Below, one piece after another: positions 16,910 to 26,736 of a stretch of DNA of 48,485 nt. The notes under the pieces are model-generated. The model was not told where the DNA came from. It did not search any database and saw nothing but the letters and a program-made list of their open reading frames with translations. Source of the stretch: Kiritimatiellota bacterium (GTDB taxonomy: Bacteria > Verrucomicrobiota > Lentisphaeria > Oligosphaerales > JAADHN01); NCBI GenBank assembly GCA_013151865.1, contig JAADHN010000138.1:1-48485 (forward strand). Direction: 5' to 3'. The position numbers and the translations under genes are program-made. Numbering within the stretch: position 1 is the stretch's first letter; the number at the start of each line of letters is the position of its first letter.

Positions 16910-17612
16910 GACCGGGCCCCTCCTTCGGGCCGCCCCGTTTCTTGTCCATCGCCCCGCCGGGCGCGTTCGGCTTCCTGCGAGTCCCTGAGCAACCACTCGA
17001 CGGTCAAGCAGTGCGGCACACGTATCCGACCGTTCTCCGCCGGACTCCAACGCACTCACCAGCATGACGGGGTTGTTCCGGTCCGGGGTGGCCGGGGTCG
17101 TGGGACCGGCAGAGAAGCCCGGGTCGCTTCGAAACGATCTCGGCCCCGGACGAGCCGCCGCCTTCCTCAAGGCCGTTCAAAGCATGTTGGCCCTGACTGT
17201 AATCTGTGCCGCAGCGGATGCCAGCGCCGGCCGACCGACATCTCAAGCGCGTTATGGCACACCGCACTTGCGGCCTGCCGGTGCGGCTTTGCACCATCGC
17301 TTCTCCGGGTTATGTTCCCGCCCGAAACAGCGCCCCCTCGGCCCGTATCCGGGCGAATGCGGCCGGCCCCGGCGGATCTGTGCGGTCCGCAGAACGAGGC
17401 ACGTGTCGAGACGAGGGTGCGACATATGGTCTCACCTGAACCATTCATGAAGCCGACAGTATTGCGTCGATTCACGCTGGACGGGAAACGGTTGCGGACG
17501 GTGCTGCGCCAGAACTCGATTCCCGGCGCTTGCGCCGGAAGAGCGGCAATGCGCTTCACCCTCCGGGCGACGCGTGAATAGTTCAGACCAACCCCGGGAG
17601 GCAAGGCATCAC
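16910..17612. other. Long divergent intergenic region with repeat copy 2
   Basis: This 703-bp spacer between two exported-protein genes has no convincing gene. Several open frames cross it, but none has plausible composition or a ribosome site. Repeat copy 2 fills 17438-17584. The segment TATGTTCCCGCCCGAAAC (17311-17328) resembles, in the opposite orientation, a stretch at 2531-2548 beside repeat copy 1. Confidence 0.5.
17438..17584 (+). repeat. 147-bp intergenic repeat, copy 2
   Basis: This is the partner of 2579-2725, with the same length and orientation. Its ends are GAACCATTCA and TGAATAGTTC, an imperfect terminal inverted repeat (one mismatch). Outside it, GGTCT on the left is mirrored by AGACC on the right. 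It ends 28 bp before the SGNH hydrolase ATG, so the element probably lies in or next to that gene's leader. Half of the 22 differences from copy 1 fall in one codon phase. The frame with that phase at third positions ends at the same TGA in both copies, a weak hint of decayed coding sequence. Confidence 0.85.
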
Positions 17613-18950
17613 ATGAAACGCTGGATCGGAATCGTTCTTTCGGCAGTGGCAATCGGCGCCGGTGCGGCAGCCCCTGTGCCGCCGGGCCTCAAGTCCGGCG
17701 ACACGCTCCTCTTTCTGGGGGACAGCATCACCCATCAATGTCTCTATACCCGTTACGTGACGCTGTTTTACATGACCCGCTATCCCCTGACACCGCTTCA
17801 CTTCTACAATTCCGGAGTGGGCGGGGACCAGGCTGCCAATGCGCTCAAGCGCTTCGAGTACGACGTGGCTGCAATGCGTCCGGCGTGCGTCACGGTCCTG
17901 CTCGGCATGAACGACGGCCGATACCGCCCCCTCGGCGAACCCCAGTTCGGCATCTACAAAACCAACATGACCGCCCTGGTCGACCGTCTGCAGAAAGAGA
18001 CCGCCGCCCGGATTTTCCTGCTGACGCCGTCCATGTACGACGTGAAGGCCCGCACGATGCGCGGACGGCCGGGAATCCCCGGATATAACGATGCCCTGGT
18101 GGCCTTCGGCGAGTTCCTCGTGTCTCTCGGCAAAGAGCGGGGCCTGCCCGTCGTAAACCTCAATCGGCCCTTGGTCGAGGCCACGGCCGCCCTGCGGCGA
18201 AGCAAGCCCGAGGCGACCCTGATTCCGGGCGGGGTCCACCCCGATCCTGCCGGACACTTGGTCATGGCCTACACGATCCTCAAGGCTTTCGGCGTGACCC
18301 CCGTCGTTTCAAAGGCCACCATCACCGTGGACAACGCCCGGGCCGAGACCGAGCGGGCCCATGTGGCGAAGCTGACGGCGCGGCAAGACGCAGTCGAATT
18401 CGATTTGACCGAAAACGCCCTGCCCTTTCCGTACCGGTCGGACGCCAGAGCGGTCCTGAGCGTTCTTCCATTCACCCGCGATCTGAACCGCCAGATCCTG
18501 GCCGTCAAGGGCTTGACAGGGGGCGAGTACCGGTTGGAAATCGATGGGGTCGCGACAGGCAGATACAGCGCAGACGCATTGGCCGAAGGGGTGAACCTCA
18601 GCGAGAACGAGAAGACGCCACAGTATCAGCAAGCGTTGCGGGTCAAGGCGTTGAACGACAAACGTACTGCCGTCATGCGCCGGGTCCGCAATTTTCGGCT
18701 CGACGAAAAGCGCAAGGGCTATCTCCAGGCGGACGGGACATACCCGCGGATGCTGTCAAAGCGCGTCCGCGCGAAGGACGGCGGCATAAAATGGGTCCCG
18801 GCGCCAGAGAAAGAGGCGCGTTTTCAGAAAGAACGAAAATCCGTGTCGAAATGGTTGGAGGAAATCCGTTCTCTGGAAACCGCGTGCTATGAGGCCGCCC
18901 GGCCGCAGCCCCACCATTACCGCCTCGTCCGGGTCCCCGCGAATCAATGA
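17613..18950 (+). CDS. Exported SGNH/GDSL hydrolase
   Basis: The 445-residue protein has an N-terminal signal peptide (M-K-R-W, hydrophobic to about residue 20). The SGNH esterase domain carries block I G36-D-S38 (nucleophile Ser), block II Gly at about 68-71 (N-S-G-V-G-G) and block III G-M-N100-D. Block V reads G-G-V-H209-P, so the catalytic His is present but the Asp expected three residues earlier is Gly206. The ~230-residue C-terminal extension, rich in Lys/Arg/Glu, is not recognised. GGGAGG lies 11 nt before the ATG. It likely deacetylates or de-esterifies a glycan in the periplasm. Repeat copy 2 lies immediately upstream. Confidence 0.9.
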   Translation: MKRWIGIVLSAVAIGAGAAAPVPPGLKSGDTLLFLGDSITHQCLYTRYVTLFYMTRYPLTPLHFYNSGVGGDQAANALKRFEYDVAAMRPACVTVLLGMNDGRYRPLGEPQFGIYKTNMTALVDRLQKETAARIFLLTPSMYDVKARTMRGRPGIPGYNDALVAFGEFLVSLGKERGLPVVNLNRPLVEATAALRRSKPEATLIPGGVHPDPAGHLVMAYTILKAFGVTPVVSKATITVDNARAETERAHVAKLTARQDAVEFDLTENALPFPYRSDARAVLSVLPFTRDLNRQILAVKGLTGGEYRLEIDGVATGRYSADALAEGVNLSENEKTPQYQQALRVKALNDKRTAVMRRVRNFRLDEKRKGYLQADGTYPRMLSKRVRAKDGGIKWVPAPEKEARFQKERKSVSKWLEEIRSLETACYEAARPQPHHYRLVRVPANQ

Positions 18951-19295
18951 GGTCCGTCAAAGCGAGGCAGCGCCGGATGCACTGATTCGGGCAATTGGGC
19001 GGAACGTCGAGCCCCCCCTCATTCGCCGGGCGACCCCGACGGCGTCTCCGGAGTTCCGATATGGCCGACGGCGAAACGGTTTTGCATCGACCGGCGGGCC
19101 CACGGGGTGACGGGAACGCGAAGATGGCGCGAAAACTGGACAAACGTCGCATCGAAGAACATATTATCGGCGGAAAGGCCGAATGGTGCATCCTTTTCCT
19201 TATTTGTTCAGGAGAACGGAAGGCGCCGCGTGTATGGGCTGGGAGCTTTGGACGCCAGCTTCAAATGCTCTCAAAACACAGAGGAGAAGTGGGGA
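18951..19295. other. Intergenic region before the outer-membrane protein gene
   Basis: The 345-bp region shows no supported gene. It ends in an A-rich stretch with GAGGAG as ribosome site. A possible -10-like TATTAT (19163-19168) has no clear -35 partner. I see nothing else in it. Confidence 0.4.
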
Positions 19296-20465
19296 ATGAG
19301 ACGATTGCTGCGTGGAGTGGGACTGGCAGCGGCACTGCTGCTGGCGATGGAATCTTTCGGCGGCGTGGCGGACCTGCTCCGGTACAACGGGGTCCAACTG
19401 GAGTACTATGATTCTTACACCTCGGAGTGGCTGCCGGCGCGGGTGAACCCGACGACCGGGGAAGTCGAGTTTCAAAGCGGCGGTTCCTGGTGGCCGGCGG
19501 TCAATCCGGCGACGGGCGAGCCCTTCACGAGCAACGACCTGAGCGGGCTCAGCGCCTCATGCCCTGTGCAGGCTTTCCGACAGGAAACCAACCGTGGCCA
19601 AGCGACCAGGTTCATGCAGGATTCGGGGGCTGAGTACCGTTCTTGGCGTGAGACGTTCAAGGGAATGAAGATCGAGGATATAATCCTCACGTTGGAATCC
19701 ATGTCGGCGCTCGAGGGCATGTCCAAGGACACCCCGCCCGCCGACGTGCCCGAGTGGCAGACACAGTGGGGATTCTCCACGACGTACAGAGAAGACGATT
19801 TCGACATCGGGGCGGGCGGTCCCATCGCGGCCAAGACGCGAACCCGGTCGCAAACGCTTTCGTTGGTGGCCGTTCACGACCGTTTCGCCCTGCTCGGGTC
19901 CCTGACTTACGACCGGATCGACCCGGACAGCGGGTTCGGGGACACGGCCTATGATCGCCTCTCCCTGCGTTTGACGCCTGTCTATGCCGTGCTCGAGCAA
20001 ACCGCAGACGGGTTCGACCTCGACCTGATCGGCAGTTTGGGAGCCAGTCATTCCTGGTACGAAGACGACATGGGCGTCAACGACCCGAGTCACGTCTTCG
20101 CGGCAGGCGGATTGGGCTTGGGCCGCATCTTCCGGTTCGGCGCTCTCCGGGTTTCATACCTGTACGGTGTGTCGAAGAATACATCCGGAGATGTGGAGGT
20201 CACCGGCAAGAGCACCATTCCCATGCATTCGGCCGGCGCAACCTACACCGTACCGCTGGCCAAGCGGTGGTTGTTGTCGTTGGGGATGGACTGGGTTCAC
20301 ACCTCGGACCTGCCGGCCATCTATGATTCCGATGAATACTCGGGTCGGGTCCGGGTGGCGTATGTGGGCGAGCGCTGGGGGGTTTCGCTCTTGACCACAA
20401 GGTCGATCAACAACGGCAACCAACGTCAGTGGTCGGCGACCGGACAGGTAATCTGCCGGTGGTAG
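19296..20465 (+). CDS. Putative outer-membrane beta-barrel protein
   Basis: The 389-residue protein has a signal peptide (M-R-R-L-L-R-G, hydrophobic stretch to about residue 23). The N-terminal passenger-like part holds a short internal repeat, V-N-P-T-T-G-E then V-N-P-A-T-G-E, about 24 residues apart. From about residue 170 onward, alternating hydrophobic strands with Gly/aromatic turns fill the chain, and it ends in Trp. These are features of autotransporter-like or porin-type outer-membrane barrels. GAGGAG lies 9 nt before ATG 19296. No specific family or ligand is recognised. It is the first of three closely packed envelope genes. Confidence 0.7.
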   Translation: MRRLLRGVGLAAALLLAMESFGGVADLLRYNGVQLEYYDSYTSEWLPARVNPTTGEVEFQSGGSWWPAVNPATGEPFTSNDLSGLSASCPVQAFRQETNRGQATRFMQDSGAEYRSWRETFKGMKIEDIILTLESMSALEGMSKDTPPADVPEWQTQWGFSTTYREDDFDIGAGGPIAAKTRTRSQTLSLVAVHDRFALLGSLTYDRIDPDSGFGDTAYDRLSLRLTPVYAVLEQTADGFDLDLIGSLGASHSWYEDDMGVNDPSHVFAAGGLGLGRIFRFGALRVSYLYGVSKNTSGDVEVTGKSTIPMHSAGATYTVPLAKRWLLSLGMDWVHTSDLPAIYDSDEYSGRVRVAYVGERWGVSLLTTRSINNGNQRQWSATGQVICRW

Positions 20466-20583
20466 GTCGATTGTTTGGCCGGACCGGCAAGGCCGGGGCG
20501 AGGCTTGTTCCGGTCGCATTGCTCGCTGTCGGTCTCCCGCTCTCTGGGGAGATCGCCAGCCGCCGCCGTTCTCCACTGCCGAT

Positions 20584-21471
20584 TTGCTCGCCGGCGACCT
20601 GTTTCTGAGTCGGTCCGGCGCCGTCATCTCGGCCCTGCCCGCGTGGCACCCTCGCTATCGCGGTCCCTACAGTCATTCAGCGGTTTTCTTTCGCGACCCC
20701 GCCGGAAACCCCATGTTGTTGCACATCAGCGGGGACGCTCTCAAGGTCACCCCTCTCGAAGACATGTTCCGGGGACTGGCCCGCATCCGGGTTTTGCGCC
20801 ATCGCCAGGTGATGCCGAGCGACAACCCGTTGGCCCCCGTGGTCCGTGCGTGGGTCAAAGACCGCCTTGGGGAGATCATCTCGGTGTACGCCCCGCCCGA
20901 GACCGGCATTGGGCGTTTCAGTTGCGTCGGGTTTGTCGACGAAATCTATCGTCAAAGCGGACTCGATCCTCCGTTCGCCCCGGGGGAGGACGATCCGGTC
21001 CGGTTCCTCTTGGCGTGGTACGACCGCAAAACGTCGAAAGGCTTGGCTGCGGTCATCAGCGCCAACAGTGCACTGTCCAATCCGAACTTTCGGACGGTAC
21101 GCACCTGGAAGGCCCCCCGATTTCAGCTCATCGTGTCCGAGATTGCCGACGCCGTGATCGAGCTGACGGTTTCGGACCTGGCACGCGGCTTCGACGTGCG
21201 CCCCGCGCCGTTCGGCTCTCGGTGGCGCATTCGCATTTTGGGCGCCCTGGGTGTCGAATCTCCGGCCATGGGACGACTGGACCTGTTCCGAATTCAGTAC
21301 TTACGTCTGGTTCAACGCATCGAGCGGGCCCTGGTCAGGCAGGCACGGAACGGGCATCCGTTGCCCGAAGCTTCGGACGCACGGCGCAACGCCATCCGCG
21401 AGACCTACAATGCCGTACGGAAAGACTATTTGTACCTGCCTGTCGGGGCTGATCCTCGTCCTCTGGAGTAG
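20584..21471 (+). CDS. YiiX-like permuted NlpC/P60 papain-fold hydrolase, N-terminus uncertain
   Basis: The readable frame gives 295 residues starting at TTG 20584. G-D-L-F-L opens the domain, H31 in P-Y-S-H-S-A-V-F and C114 in F-S-C-V-G-F-V-D-E-I-Y form the His/Cys pair. His precedes Cys, as in permuted papain-like YiiX/YebB enzymes, which act on peptidoglycan or lipid amides. The frame upstream lacks any ATG or export signal. The next frame from GTG 20459 encodes a good signal peptide (R-L-V-P-V-A-L-L-A-V-G-L-P-L-S-G). A single-base frameshift near 20545-20580, real or from sequencing, would join them. The following gene overlaps its end by 62 nt. Confidence 0.75.
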   Translation: MLAGDLFLSRSGAVISALPAWHPRYRGPYSHSAVFFRDPAGNPMLLHISGDALKVTPLEDMFRGLARIRVLRHRQVMPSDNPLAPVVRAWVKDRLGEIISVYAPPETGIGRFSCVGFVDEIYRQSGLDPPFAPGEDDPVRFLLAWYDRKTSKGLAAVISANSALSNPNFRTVRTWKAPRFQLIVSEIADAVIELTVSDLARGFDVRPAPFGSRWRIRILGALGVESPAMGRLDLFRIQYLRLVQRIERALVRQARNGHPLPEASDARRNAIRETYNAVRKDYLYLPVGADPRPLE

Positions 21472-22291
21472 CAGCGGGTGCGTGTCCCGGCCGTTGTCGC
21501 CGGACAGGGGGGACCGCCCGTCCTGCGCACCGATCCCGTGGATCGTCGTCGAAAGCCGGTCAACTGCCCGTTGGGGCAAGGCGGCGCAGACGGAAGCGGC
21601 CCGTCTGGCGGGCGCGTTGGAGTGGCTGGTGGGCCCGCTGCCCGAGAACGTCCGGCCGTCATGGCGCATCCGCTTATCGACGCAGGCGAACGTGCCGGAC
21701 GCTTTCCGGGAACGTTGCGGGCAGGAGAGTTGGACCGGGGTCACGGAGCGCAACGCGCGGGTCGCTTGGGTTGCCATCGCGCACGGCAACGATGGGGAAA
21801 CCCTGAGACGACTGCGACACGAACTCACCCACGTCATCCTCGCAGCCGCCGGAGACGCCGGCGCCGATTTTCCTTTTTGGCTGCAGGAAGGAATTCCGTG
21901 CTGTTACGAGGCCGGGATCGGTCCGCTCGGACGGCCGCTGGACAACCGCGCCCGACGCCGTCACCTCCAGCTCCTGCTCCGAACCGGACGCCCGCTCCGT
22001 TTGGACCGGTTTCTGAACAAGCGGGCCGACGCTCCGTTTTCTTCGAATGACTATGCCGTGGCGTGGGGACTGGTGTACGCCTTGGCGACTGAGCGCCTCG
22101 GGAGAGAGGGACGGACGTGCCTCGAGAAATGCCTGCGTGCGGCAGGACGTGCGGCCAGGAACTCGGAGAGCGCGACCGGGGCCGCCCGTCGGGCTTTCGA
22201 TTCGTATCTATCCGGTCAAGGGTTGACTCTGTACAAATGGGAAAAGCGCTGGCGCCGGACCGTACTCCATCTCGGGGGTCTGTTCGATTGA
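21410..22291 (+). CDS. Lipoprotein metalloprotease of the peptidase MA-like type
   Basis: The 293-residue protein has a lipoprotein signal: hydrophobic residues 11-20, then S-S-G-C with Cys at 24. It has a zinc-protease motif H137-E-L-T-H141, followed by F-W-L-Q-E160-G-I-P, where the Glu is the probable third ligand. This spacing fits gluzincin-like peptidase MA proteins. The start at 21410 is accepted because the lipobox directly follows, even though it overlaps the YiiX-like gene by 62 nt. The protein probably sits in the outer membrane or periplasm. Its operon with a papain-fold protein and a barrel suggests an envelope-remodelling function, which is inference. Confidence 0.82.
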   Translation: MPYGKTICTCLSGLILVLWSSSGCVSRPLSPDRGDRPSCAPIPWIVVESRSTARWGKAAQTEAARLAGALEWLVGPLPENVRPSWRIRLSTQANVPDAFRERCGQESWTGVTERNARVAWVAIAHGNDGETLRRLRHELTHVILAAAGDAGADFPFWLQEGIPCCYEAGIGPLGRPLDNRARRRHLQLLLRTGRPLRLDRFLNKRADAPFSSNDYAVAWGLVYALATERLGREGRTCLEKCLRAAGRAARNSESATGAARRAFDSYLSGQGLTLYKWEKRWRRTVLHLGGLFD

Positions 22292-25196: not shown

Positions 25197-25227
25197 TTGT
25201 CGATCCGTTCCCGTGTTCAGATATAGT
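25197..25227 (+). promoter_or_regulatory. Candidate sigma70-type promoter of the sulfatase gene
   Basis: TTGTCG (25197-25202) is followed after 17 nt by GATATA (25220-25225), overlapping TATAGT (25222-25227). The ATG is at 25276, giving a leader of about 40 nt. This is an AT-rich island in otherwise GC-rich DNA between divergent genes. Confidence 0.45.
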
Positions 25228-25275
25228 ATACCGTATCATTTCGCGGGTTTCCCGGGCGCCGATCAAAGACACGAC

Positions 25276-26736
25276 ATGAACTTCATCCTGTTCAATCCGG
25301 ACGAAATGCGGGCCGAGAGCGTCGGGTGTTACGGGCATCCGGTCTCACAGACGCCGCACATGGATCGCCTGGCGGCGGAGGGCGTGCGGTTCGAACAGTG
25401 CCATGTTCAGCACACGGTGTGTTCTCCGTCGCGCTGCAGTTTCATGACCGGCTGGTATCCGCATGTTCGGGGACACCGGACGCTTTGGCACTTGCTCCGT
25501 CCGGACGAACCCAACCTTCTGCGCTACTTGAAGGACGCCGGCTACGATGTGCAATGGTGGGGAAAAAACGATCTGCTCGCGCCCGAGACGTTTGCCGGCA
25601 GTGTGAACCGGGCGGGGCGCCCGACCGGCCCGCCGCCGCTGCCGGGCGGGACGCCCGCCAGGACGAACCCTTTTCCCCCGGGAACGCCCGGGTTCTACAG
25701 TTTCCTCTACGAACCTGTCGGCAACGCTCCCGCCGAAAACCTCGGGGACTTTCGCTGCGTACAGGCCGCCATCGACTACCTCCGGGCCGGTCCCCGGGGA
25801 CCGTTCGCCTTGTTCCTGCCCATTGGCCTGCCGCATTGTCCGTACGTGGCCCCTCGGCCGTGGCATGATCTCATCGACCCCGAGTCGTTGCCGCCGCTGC
25901 GACCGGTCGAACCGAGTGCGAAGCCCGATTTCCATCGGCTGATCCGTGAGTACCGGGACCTCGAAGTGCTCGACGACGCGTTCTTCCGGAAAATCAACGC
26001 GGTCTATCTGGGCATGATCTCGCTGGTGGACCACATGCTCGGTCGACTGCTGGAAGCGCTTGAGGAAAGCGGCCACGCCGACGACACCACCGTGATCGTT
26101 TTCTCGGACCATGGCGATTGGGCCGGAGATTACGGGTTGGTCGAGAAATGGCCGAGCGGACTGGACGATTGCCTCACTCGGGTGCCGTTGATCGTCCGCA
26201 GCCCGGACAACCAGGCCGGGCACGAGGCGGCGGGACCGGTCGAGGCTTTCGATATCATGGCAACCGTACTGGAACTGGCGGGCATCGAGCCGCATCACAC
26301 GCACTTCGCCCGGTCGCTCGTGCCCGAACTGAACGGCGATCCGGGCGACCCGGACCGCGCGGTGTTCGCAGAAGGCGGTTATGACCCGCACGAACCCCAC
26401 TGCTTCGAAGGATACGGCCCCCGAAGCGAGACCATCATGACGCCGGGCCACATCTACTACCCGAAACTGCTCCAGCAACAGGAACATCCCGAAAGCGTAT
26501 GCCGCGCCGTCATGCTCCGGACCGCGACCCACAAGCTGGTGCGGCGCAGTACCGGTCAGCACGAACTGTACGACCTGACTCGCGATCCCCGGGAGCTGAA
26601 CAACGTCTACGGCGCGGCAGAGTACGCCCAAGTGTGCCGGCGCCTCGAACAACGCTTGATGGACTGGTACTTGTGGACCAGCGACGTCGTCCCGCCCGAC
26701 GAGGACCCGCGCGGCTTCCCGGCCCCGGCAACATGA
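25276..26736 (+). CDS. Type I sulfatase (formylglycine-dependent)
   Basis: The 486-residue protein has the sulfatase signature C49-S-P-S-R53, in which Cys is converted to formylglycine, continuing C-S-F-M-T-G. N-terminal D/E metal ligands lie in N-P-D-E-M-R-A-E-S, and the later S-D-H-G-D segment provides Asp and His. The C-terminal Y-D-L-T-R-D-P-R-E-L-N-N is characteristic of arylsulfatase-like proteins. No signal peptide is seen with the start at ATG 25276; that ATG lacks a good ribosome site, and the upstream extension to 25213 is not more signal-like. It therefore appears cytoplasmic, which suits desulfation of imported sulfated sugars. The maturase at 40314-41540 could activate it. Confidence 0.95.
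   Translation: MNFILFNPDEMRAESVGCYGHPVSQTPHMDRLAAEGVRFEQCHVQHTVCSPSRCSFMTGWYPHVRGHRTLWHLLRPDEPNLLRYLKDAGYDVQWWGKNDLLAPETFAGSVNRAGRPTGPPPLPGGTPARTNPFPPGTPGFYSFLYEPVGNAPAENLGDFRCVQAAIDYLRAGPRGPFALFLPIGLPHCPYVAPRPWHDLIDPESLPPLRPVEPSAKPDFHRLIREYRDLEVLDDAFFRKINAVYLGMISLVDHMLGRLLEALEESGHADDTTVIVFSDHGDWAGDYGLVEKWPSGLDDCLTRVPLIVRSPDNQAGHEAAGPVEAFDIMATVLELAGIEPHHTHFARSLVPELNGDPGDPDRAVFAEGGYDPHEPHCFEGYGPRSETIMTPGHIYYPKLLQQQEHPESVCRAVMLRTATHKLVRRSTGQHELYDLTRDPRELNNVYGAAEYAQVCRRLEQRLMDWYLWTSDVVPPDEDPRGFPAPAT

Follow-up and report, generated by a model that had tools for sequence, protein, structure and literature searches.

Three closely packed genes, here called A, B and C, in a stretch of 48,485 nucleotides (nt) from a Kiritimatiellota bacterium (contig JAADHN010000138.1; the whole stretch is referred to below as the window) encode a barrel-like protein, a divergent permuted NlpC/P60 protein and a gluzincin-like protein. 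To judge from their sequences it is very probable that the three proteins act jointly at the surface of the cell, because the trio recurs together in distant relatives of one order. The observed basis of the module is its conserved gene order, the motifs of its proteins and a separate clade of B proteins with an altered active site. The function tentatively favored for it is that of an outer-membrane module processing acyl-bearing envelope molecules, i.e. phospholipids or lipoproteins, since the known permuted NlpC/P60 members act on acyl groups and not on peptidoglycan. The genes are co-directional (+ strand) and together fill 19296-22291; the open reading frame positions confirm the packing described in a first-pass annotation of the window, including an overlap of exactly 62 nt between the B stop, ending at 21471, and the C ATG at 21410. 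The statement of that annotation that no system of such composition is known to be described is in keeping with the literature searched, in which no paper describes the three-gene module to judge by titles and the beginnings of abstracts, most subscription journals not being covered.

The conservation of the trio was followed in a sample of the window's genome and 58 others (59 in all), 46 of the 58 belonging to the window's order. Single-protein searches of these gave matches for A in 7 genomes and for B and C in 6 each, and the 7 with A-type matches, the window's included, are all of one order. Class-wide profile searches of 197 genomes detected A and B in 8 genomes each and C-like proteins in 22, and an even sample of the phylum yielded B in 7 of 387 genomes. 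Within the order the class search detected B in 6 genomes, every one of which also has A; the remaining B matches in class and phylum (G095, G146, G400) are weak ones from beyond the order, and no trio was found outside the window's order among the 197 class and 387 phylum genomes. Complete A-B-C arrangements occur in four genomes of three families: that of the window (G000, family f1), G022 (locus L038) and G030 (L022), which belong to one genus of f7, and G009 (L025, f3), where the A beside B was detected only by profile search. In all four the genes lie on one strand with their ends overlapping or near-abutting, and the conserved neighborhood that the first-pass annotation proposed to look for among related genomes is thereby found. 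The trio proteins of G022, G030 and G009 show 21-32% identity to those of the window, and the gene order has therefore outlasted much sequence change. Directly after the A stop follows the B ATG in L021, L023 and L025. In G027 (L023, f7) A-B continues up to the contig end, and in G013 (L024, f8) A-B is followed directly by a convergent gene. The ratios of nonsynonymous to synonymous substitution rates (dN/dS) are 0.31 for B and 0.24 for C (L038 vs L022) and 0.35 for A (L038 vs L023), the A value of 0.39 for L038 vs L022 being inflated by codons of the broken L022 A frame, which leave the L038-L023 value unaffected; the ratios point to purifying selection on the trio genes. In G013 a terminator-like hairpin with a stem of 14 pairs (L024:6342-6376) lies between A and B and could make A more abundant than B.

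Gene B encodes a protein with an altered active site. Window B alone matches 0 Pfam families at E up to 1, and only one of the five B family members matches PF05708 YaeF/YiiX (E 3.1e-5); the five-row family profile matches PDB 3kw0 (E 1.8e-4) in an alignment that pairs the catalytic His residues and, weakly, the stretch around the catalytic Cys. The catalytic His precedes the catalytic Cys, the order of a circular permutation, and both are kept in 5/5 trio B proteins. Of the 38 permuted-family sequences 28 have Glu at the third triad position and 10 have His, the latter being all five trio B proteins together with L102, L105, L112, L082 and L037. A conserved active-site Tyr is present in 29/38 and is Phe in 4/5 trio B proteins, window B having at this position an unaligned residue at the edge of a gap. 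The alignment is loose around this Tyr, and a Tyr is found 2-3 residues further on in the window, L038 and L022, for which a shifted Tyr is conceivable; L024 and L025 have none there. The triad Glu is described as highly conserved and the Tyr as apparently essential (PMC3142127). In a tree of the 38 sequences the five trio B proteins form one side of a branch with support 100/99, on a long separate stem; the set consisted of 30 matches from a larger table of matches, the five trio proteins, L082, L037 and L078, and the contig-cut B of L023/G027 was omitted from the alignment and from later B counts. By its sequence, then, B represents a distinct clade that has diverged within the permuted group, and it is not filed as a plain YaeF/YiiX member because two defining features, Glu and Tyr, fail. 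The composition first proposed for the locus (barrel, YiiX-like protein, HELTH protein) is supported, but with a B that is no ordinary YiiX. Phe at the conserved-Tyr position is also seen in L105, L112, L082 and L037, which constitute a second permuted NlpC/P60 group sharing the His/Phe active-site change of trio B.

The C protein is gluzincin-like and presumably secreted. Matches to DUF1570 were obtained for 5/5 C family members (E up to 1, best 3.6e-7), window C itself falling below the Pfam gathering score (20.8 vs 22 bits), and the C profile shows similarity to M1 aminopeptidases as well (best E 0.0027). C has a HELTH motif and a downstream WLxEG Glu, and a peptidase role is plausible for it. 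The lipobox, SSGC, is degenerate, and the C proteins of two relatives (L021/L038 and L022) apparently have, as judged by eye, an ordinary signal peptide; for both reasons C is only likely to be a lipoprotein, so that the lipid anchor given to it in the first-pass annotation is qualified. Among C relatives of the order outside the trio, the one with the highest score belongs to G010 (L079:6912-8054) and shares 4 nt with a trypsin-like gene (Trypsin_2, E 3.7e-22) that has tetratricopeptide repeat (TPR) matches and a lipoprotein-like start, the two genes spanning L079:6912-9352.

Gene A is likely to encode an outer-membrane barrel. Its N-terminus is a hydrophobic signal-like stretch by eye and by hydropathy, the means by which signal peptides are assigned, provisionally, to all of the trio proteins; envelope targeting of all three, as originally annotated, is supported by such inspection. 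The C-terminal residue is Trp or Phe in 8/8 aligned A-type proteins, and the only Pfam match is a weak one to OMP_b-brl (E 0.0019, below the cut-off), with no PDB match of the A profile at E up to 10. The sole part of the A AlphaFold model above a predicted local distance difference test (pLDDT) value of 50 is residues 24-84, with ten-residue block means of 59-80 up to residue 80. The A tree did not resolve in its deep order. G009 (L028:1336-3045) and G010 (L080:3402-4085 and L081:6421-7569) also have a more distantly related kind of barrel, with a small lipoprotein-like gene after it; in G010 this barrel is split over two contig ends; the small genes have no Pfam match at the cut-off and are alike by eye, which suggests another barrel-lipoprotein pair.

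Not all copies of the genes are intact. The frame of the B body in the window contains no ATG, GTG or TTG from the end of A to 20584, and its codons upstream of 20584 show no signal-like stretch (best 12-residue hydropathy -0.15); the stretch starting at GTG 20459, in another frame, has a best 12-residue hydropathy of 2.32, relatives having 2.32-2.55. The two frames part at ~20545-20584, a break that the first-pass annotation overlooked. A sequence or assembly error, a lesion in the gene or an allele that is switched off may each account for it. Runs of at least six equal bases are absent from the break, and no classical slippery heptamer that would indicate programmed frameshifting was seen in window B by eye, no formal test being made. 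In G030 (L022:700-3189) the signal-like stretch of A is likewise out of frame with the A body, the shift probably lying close to a run of six C. The B gene there carries a TAG codon in frame downstream of the catalytic domain, and its reading frame stays open past this codon. The trio copies of G022/L038 and G009/L025 have no visible break. Phase variation of the module, brought to mind by the position of the G030 A break near the six-C run, is speculation.

The mechanism that may be pictured for processing of acyl-bearing molecules is as follows. A would lie in the outer membrane as a pore or scaffold with its small beta domain. B would be exported to the periplasm or outer membrane, where its Cys-His-His site would attack an acyl ester or amide and then hydrolyse or transfer the acyl group. 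The probable zinc peptidase C would be either anchored or free in the periplasm and would clip a partner protein or a protein substrate. That the three form one complex and share a substrate is pure conjecture. The acyl chemistry supposed for B comes by analogy from its superfamily: YiiX was crystallised with a fatty acid in the active site (PMC3142127), the N-acylation of lipoproteins depends on LnsA (PMC7387801) and Tox-Act1 is a phospholipase that cleaves phosphatidylglycerol and phosphatidylethanolamine (PMC12994826). These accounts connect permuted NlpC/P60 proteins with acyl groups, which runs counter to the peptidoglycan- or protein-degrading role first suggested for B. A more specific and more daring version, an undescribed surface acyl-modification system of one Lentisphaerota order, in which B would be an acyltransferase of the permuted NlpC/P60 kind with a Cys-His-His site, combined with barrel and gluzincin, and perhaps frame-switched near its signal peptides (window B, G030 A), is unlikely; if true, the three proteins together would remodel surface lipids or lipoproteins. 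The functions of bacterial YaeF/YiiX-like proteins are described as poorly understood (PMC7387801). By coupling a barrel and a gluzincin to a divergent clade of these proteins whose active site is altered, the conserved operon provides a physiological context that can be tested, in a group of Planctomycetes-Verrucomicrobia-Chlamydiae (PVC) bacteria that has been little studied.

A number of observations weigh against the acyl-processing proposal or the unity of the module. The trio-type C proteins were one clade in 0% of 200 bootstrap trees, in a tree that took 15/18 non-trio C-like loci and did not resolve the deep order or a common origin of these C proteins. The rows of T_L025, L078 and L102 are flagged as long in the B tree, and placements near them are unsure. 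G013 gave no C match in the class-wide profile search, and in G018 (f8, completeness 83%) A and C lie on separate contigs and a B of the trio type is missing. With B out of frame in the window and breaks in A and B of G030, two of the four trio genomes may have a module in decay. The A and B AlphaFold models, built from two- and three-row alignments only, are poor (mean pLDDT 46.5 for B) and have no Foldseek match at E up to 0.001, and assignment of folds by this route was dropped. Of the two hydrolases of the first-pass annotation C is plausible as a peptidase, and B can be called a putative hydrolase at most, since of four active-site residues known from YiiX it lacks the triad Glu and the conserved Tyr. 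Finally, Lnt is apparently at hand: its model (cut-off 132.9 bits) scores 276-310 bits in 7/7 genomes, for which reason B as an LnsA-style substitute for Lnt was set aside; in 14 control genomes the same model had matches below or above the cut-off in 12 and over it in 7.

The main rival to lipid or lipoprotein processing is quality control or maturation of outer-membrane proteins, in which C would trim or remove faulty barrel or surface proteins, B would be an accessory or pseudo-enzyme, and A a client or platform, much as in BepA or HtrA systems. This is somewhat unlikely. The HExxH and Glu of C are kept in 5/5 proteins while the B active site is altered, and the G010 relative of C adjoins its trypsin-like/TPR gene, both as such a role would have it; retention of the B Cys and His in 5/5 is contrary to a pseudo-enzyme, and the A-B of G013 with no C match makes the A-B link look the tighter one. 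The N-terminal beta domain modelled ahead of the barrel part of A may fit instead a device for display or attachment of surface proteins, the barrel exposing a domain or cargo that C cleaves and that B, whose group includes acyltransferases (PMC7387801, PMC12994826), transfers to lipid or another acceptor through a Cys intermediate in the manner of a sortase. No shared neighbor gene that might be the cargo was seen, a sorting tag not having been searched for, and the device is considered decidedly unlikely.

Degradation of peptidoglycan or extracellular protein by the two enzymes draws on the peptidase-like character of C and on the canonical NlpC/P60 members, which are wall hydrolases (PMC7387801); it is very unlikely given that B is permuted and that the narrow hydrophobic pocket of YiiX is described as unsuited to a peptide (PMC3142127). 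Chance adjacency, or a decaying remnant without joint function, would account for the patchy presence of the trio within the order, the frame breaks in window B and G030 A and the stop codon in G030 B. It is highly improbable in view of the way in which gene order and packing agree across three families at only 21-32% identity, of dN/dS below 0.4 and of the copies without visible break in G022 and G009.

Coordinates of the individual features are collected in the table. The neighbor genes of the trio loci, where the contigs show them, are unlike: a GDSL gene and a weakly GH2-like gene in the window, RtcB and AAA_14/DUF4143 in L038, an SDR-like gene (by eye) in L025 and a GH141-like gene in L024, the G030 contig of 4703 bases being too short for judgement. 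No fourth conserved gene was seen beside the trio in the flanks of the window, L038, L025 and L024. In G018 C has genes for a GDSL-type hydrolase and a sulfatase at its sides (L026:116-3557), and such genes also lie on either side of the window trio (17574-18950, 25213-26736), which may reflect merely how common such genes are here. Scans for expression signals were not informative: one promoter-like site precedes A (19137-19165; 0.4 expected by chance), terminator-like sites number 7 vs 2.8 expected, with a weak one at the A/B junction (20451-20467) and none after C. A defence system was rejected, the three proteins having no PADLOC match at E up to 0.1, as was plasmid spread, B having no tblastn match in a plasmid collection at E up to 0.01.

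Table. Positions of genes A, B and C and of their parts in the window.
Feature	Position	Strand	Basis or remark
Gene A, outer-membrane-barrel-like, 389 amino acids, C-terminal Trp	19296..20465	+	Alignment of A-type proteins; weak Pfam match
A residues 24-84, small N-terminal beta domain	19365..19547	+	Model
A residues 155-389, barrel-like, ~10-12 long strands	19758..20462	+	Low-confidence model, pLDDT <50
Signal-like segment assigned to B by position and hydrophobicity	20459..20545	+	Other frame than body; GTG start overlaps A stop
Gene B body, permuted NlpC/P60 (YaeF/YiiX-related) domain and C-terminal part	~20566..21471	+	Profile, alignment, model
B catalytic His (SH motif)	20674..20676	+	His in 38/38 aligned permuted-family sequences
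B third triad position, His (Glu in YiiX/BcPPNE)	20722..20724	+	Aligned with 3kw0 Glu
B catalytic Cys	20923..20925	+	Cys in 38/38 aligned permuted-family sequences
B-end/C-start overlap, 62 nt	21410..21471	+	Open reading frame coordinates; relatives 77 nt (L038), 4 nt (L025)
Gene C, secreted, probably lipid-anchored, gluzincin-like (DUF1570 / Peptidase MA-like)	21410..22291	+	Motifs, family profile
C zinc-site motif HELTH	21818..21832	+	HExxH in 5/5 trio-type C proteins
C Glu of WLxEG, probable third zinc ligand	21887..21889	+	Invariant in 5/5

Among known systems the trio has partial counterparts. Envelope quality control of the BepA and HtrA type ties a protease to outer-membrane proteins; C resembles these in being a presumed envelope protease, one relative of which adjoins a trypsin-like gene, and differs in that window C has no TPR match at E up to 1 and is coupled to a papain-like protein and a barrel. 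With the DUF1570 and Peptidase MA gluzincins (PF07607, PF13485) C shares HExxH, the downstream WLxEG Glu and apparent export; unlike them window C falls under the Pfam cut-off, and C sits behind an A-B pair in four genomes. B has in common with YaeF/YiiX proteins (PF05708, C92; E. coli YiiX and B. cereus BcPPNE, 3kw0) the His-before-Cys order, the SH motif, the GD(I/L)xL start and a catalytic Cys following an aromatic residue or one beyond it, whereas the triad Glu is replaced by His in 5/5 trio B proteins and the Tyr by Phe in 4, the window being unaligned there, and the trio B branch has its long separate stem and an extra C-terminal part modelled as helical with low confidence. The LnsA/LnsB pair of Staphylococcus aureus likewise joins a permuted NlpC/P60 protein to a partner of a metalloprotease-type family in the envelope (PMC7387801). 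As described there, however, LnsB is an integral-membrane CPBP-like protein without catalytic residues and not a gluzincin, the lnsA and lnsB genes are noncontiguous and the described pair includes no barrel; Lnt, moreover, scores above its cut-off in 7/7 genomes here.

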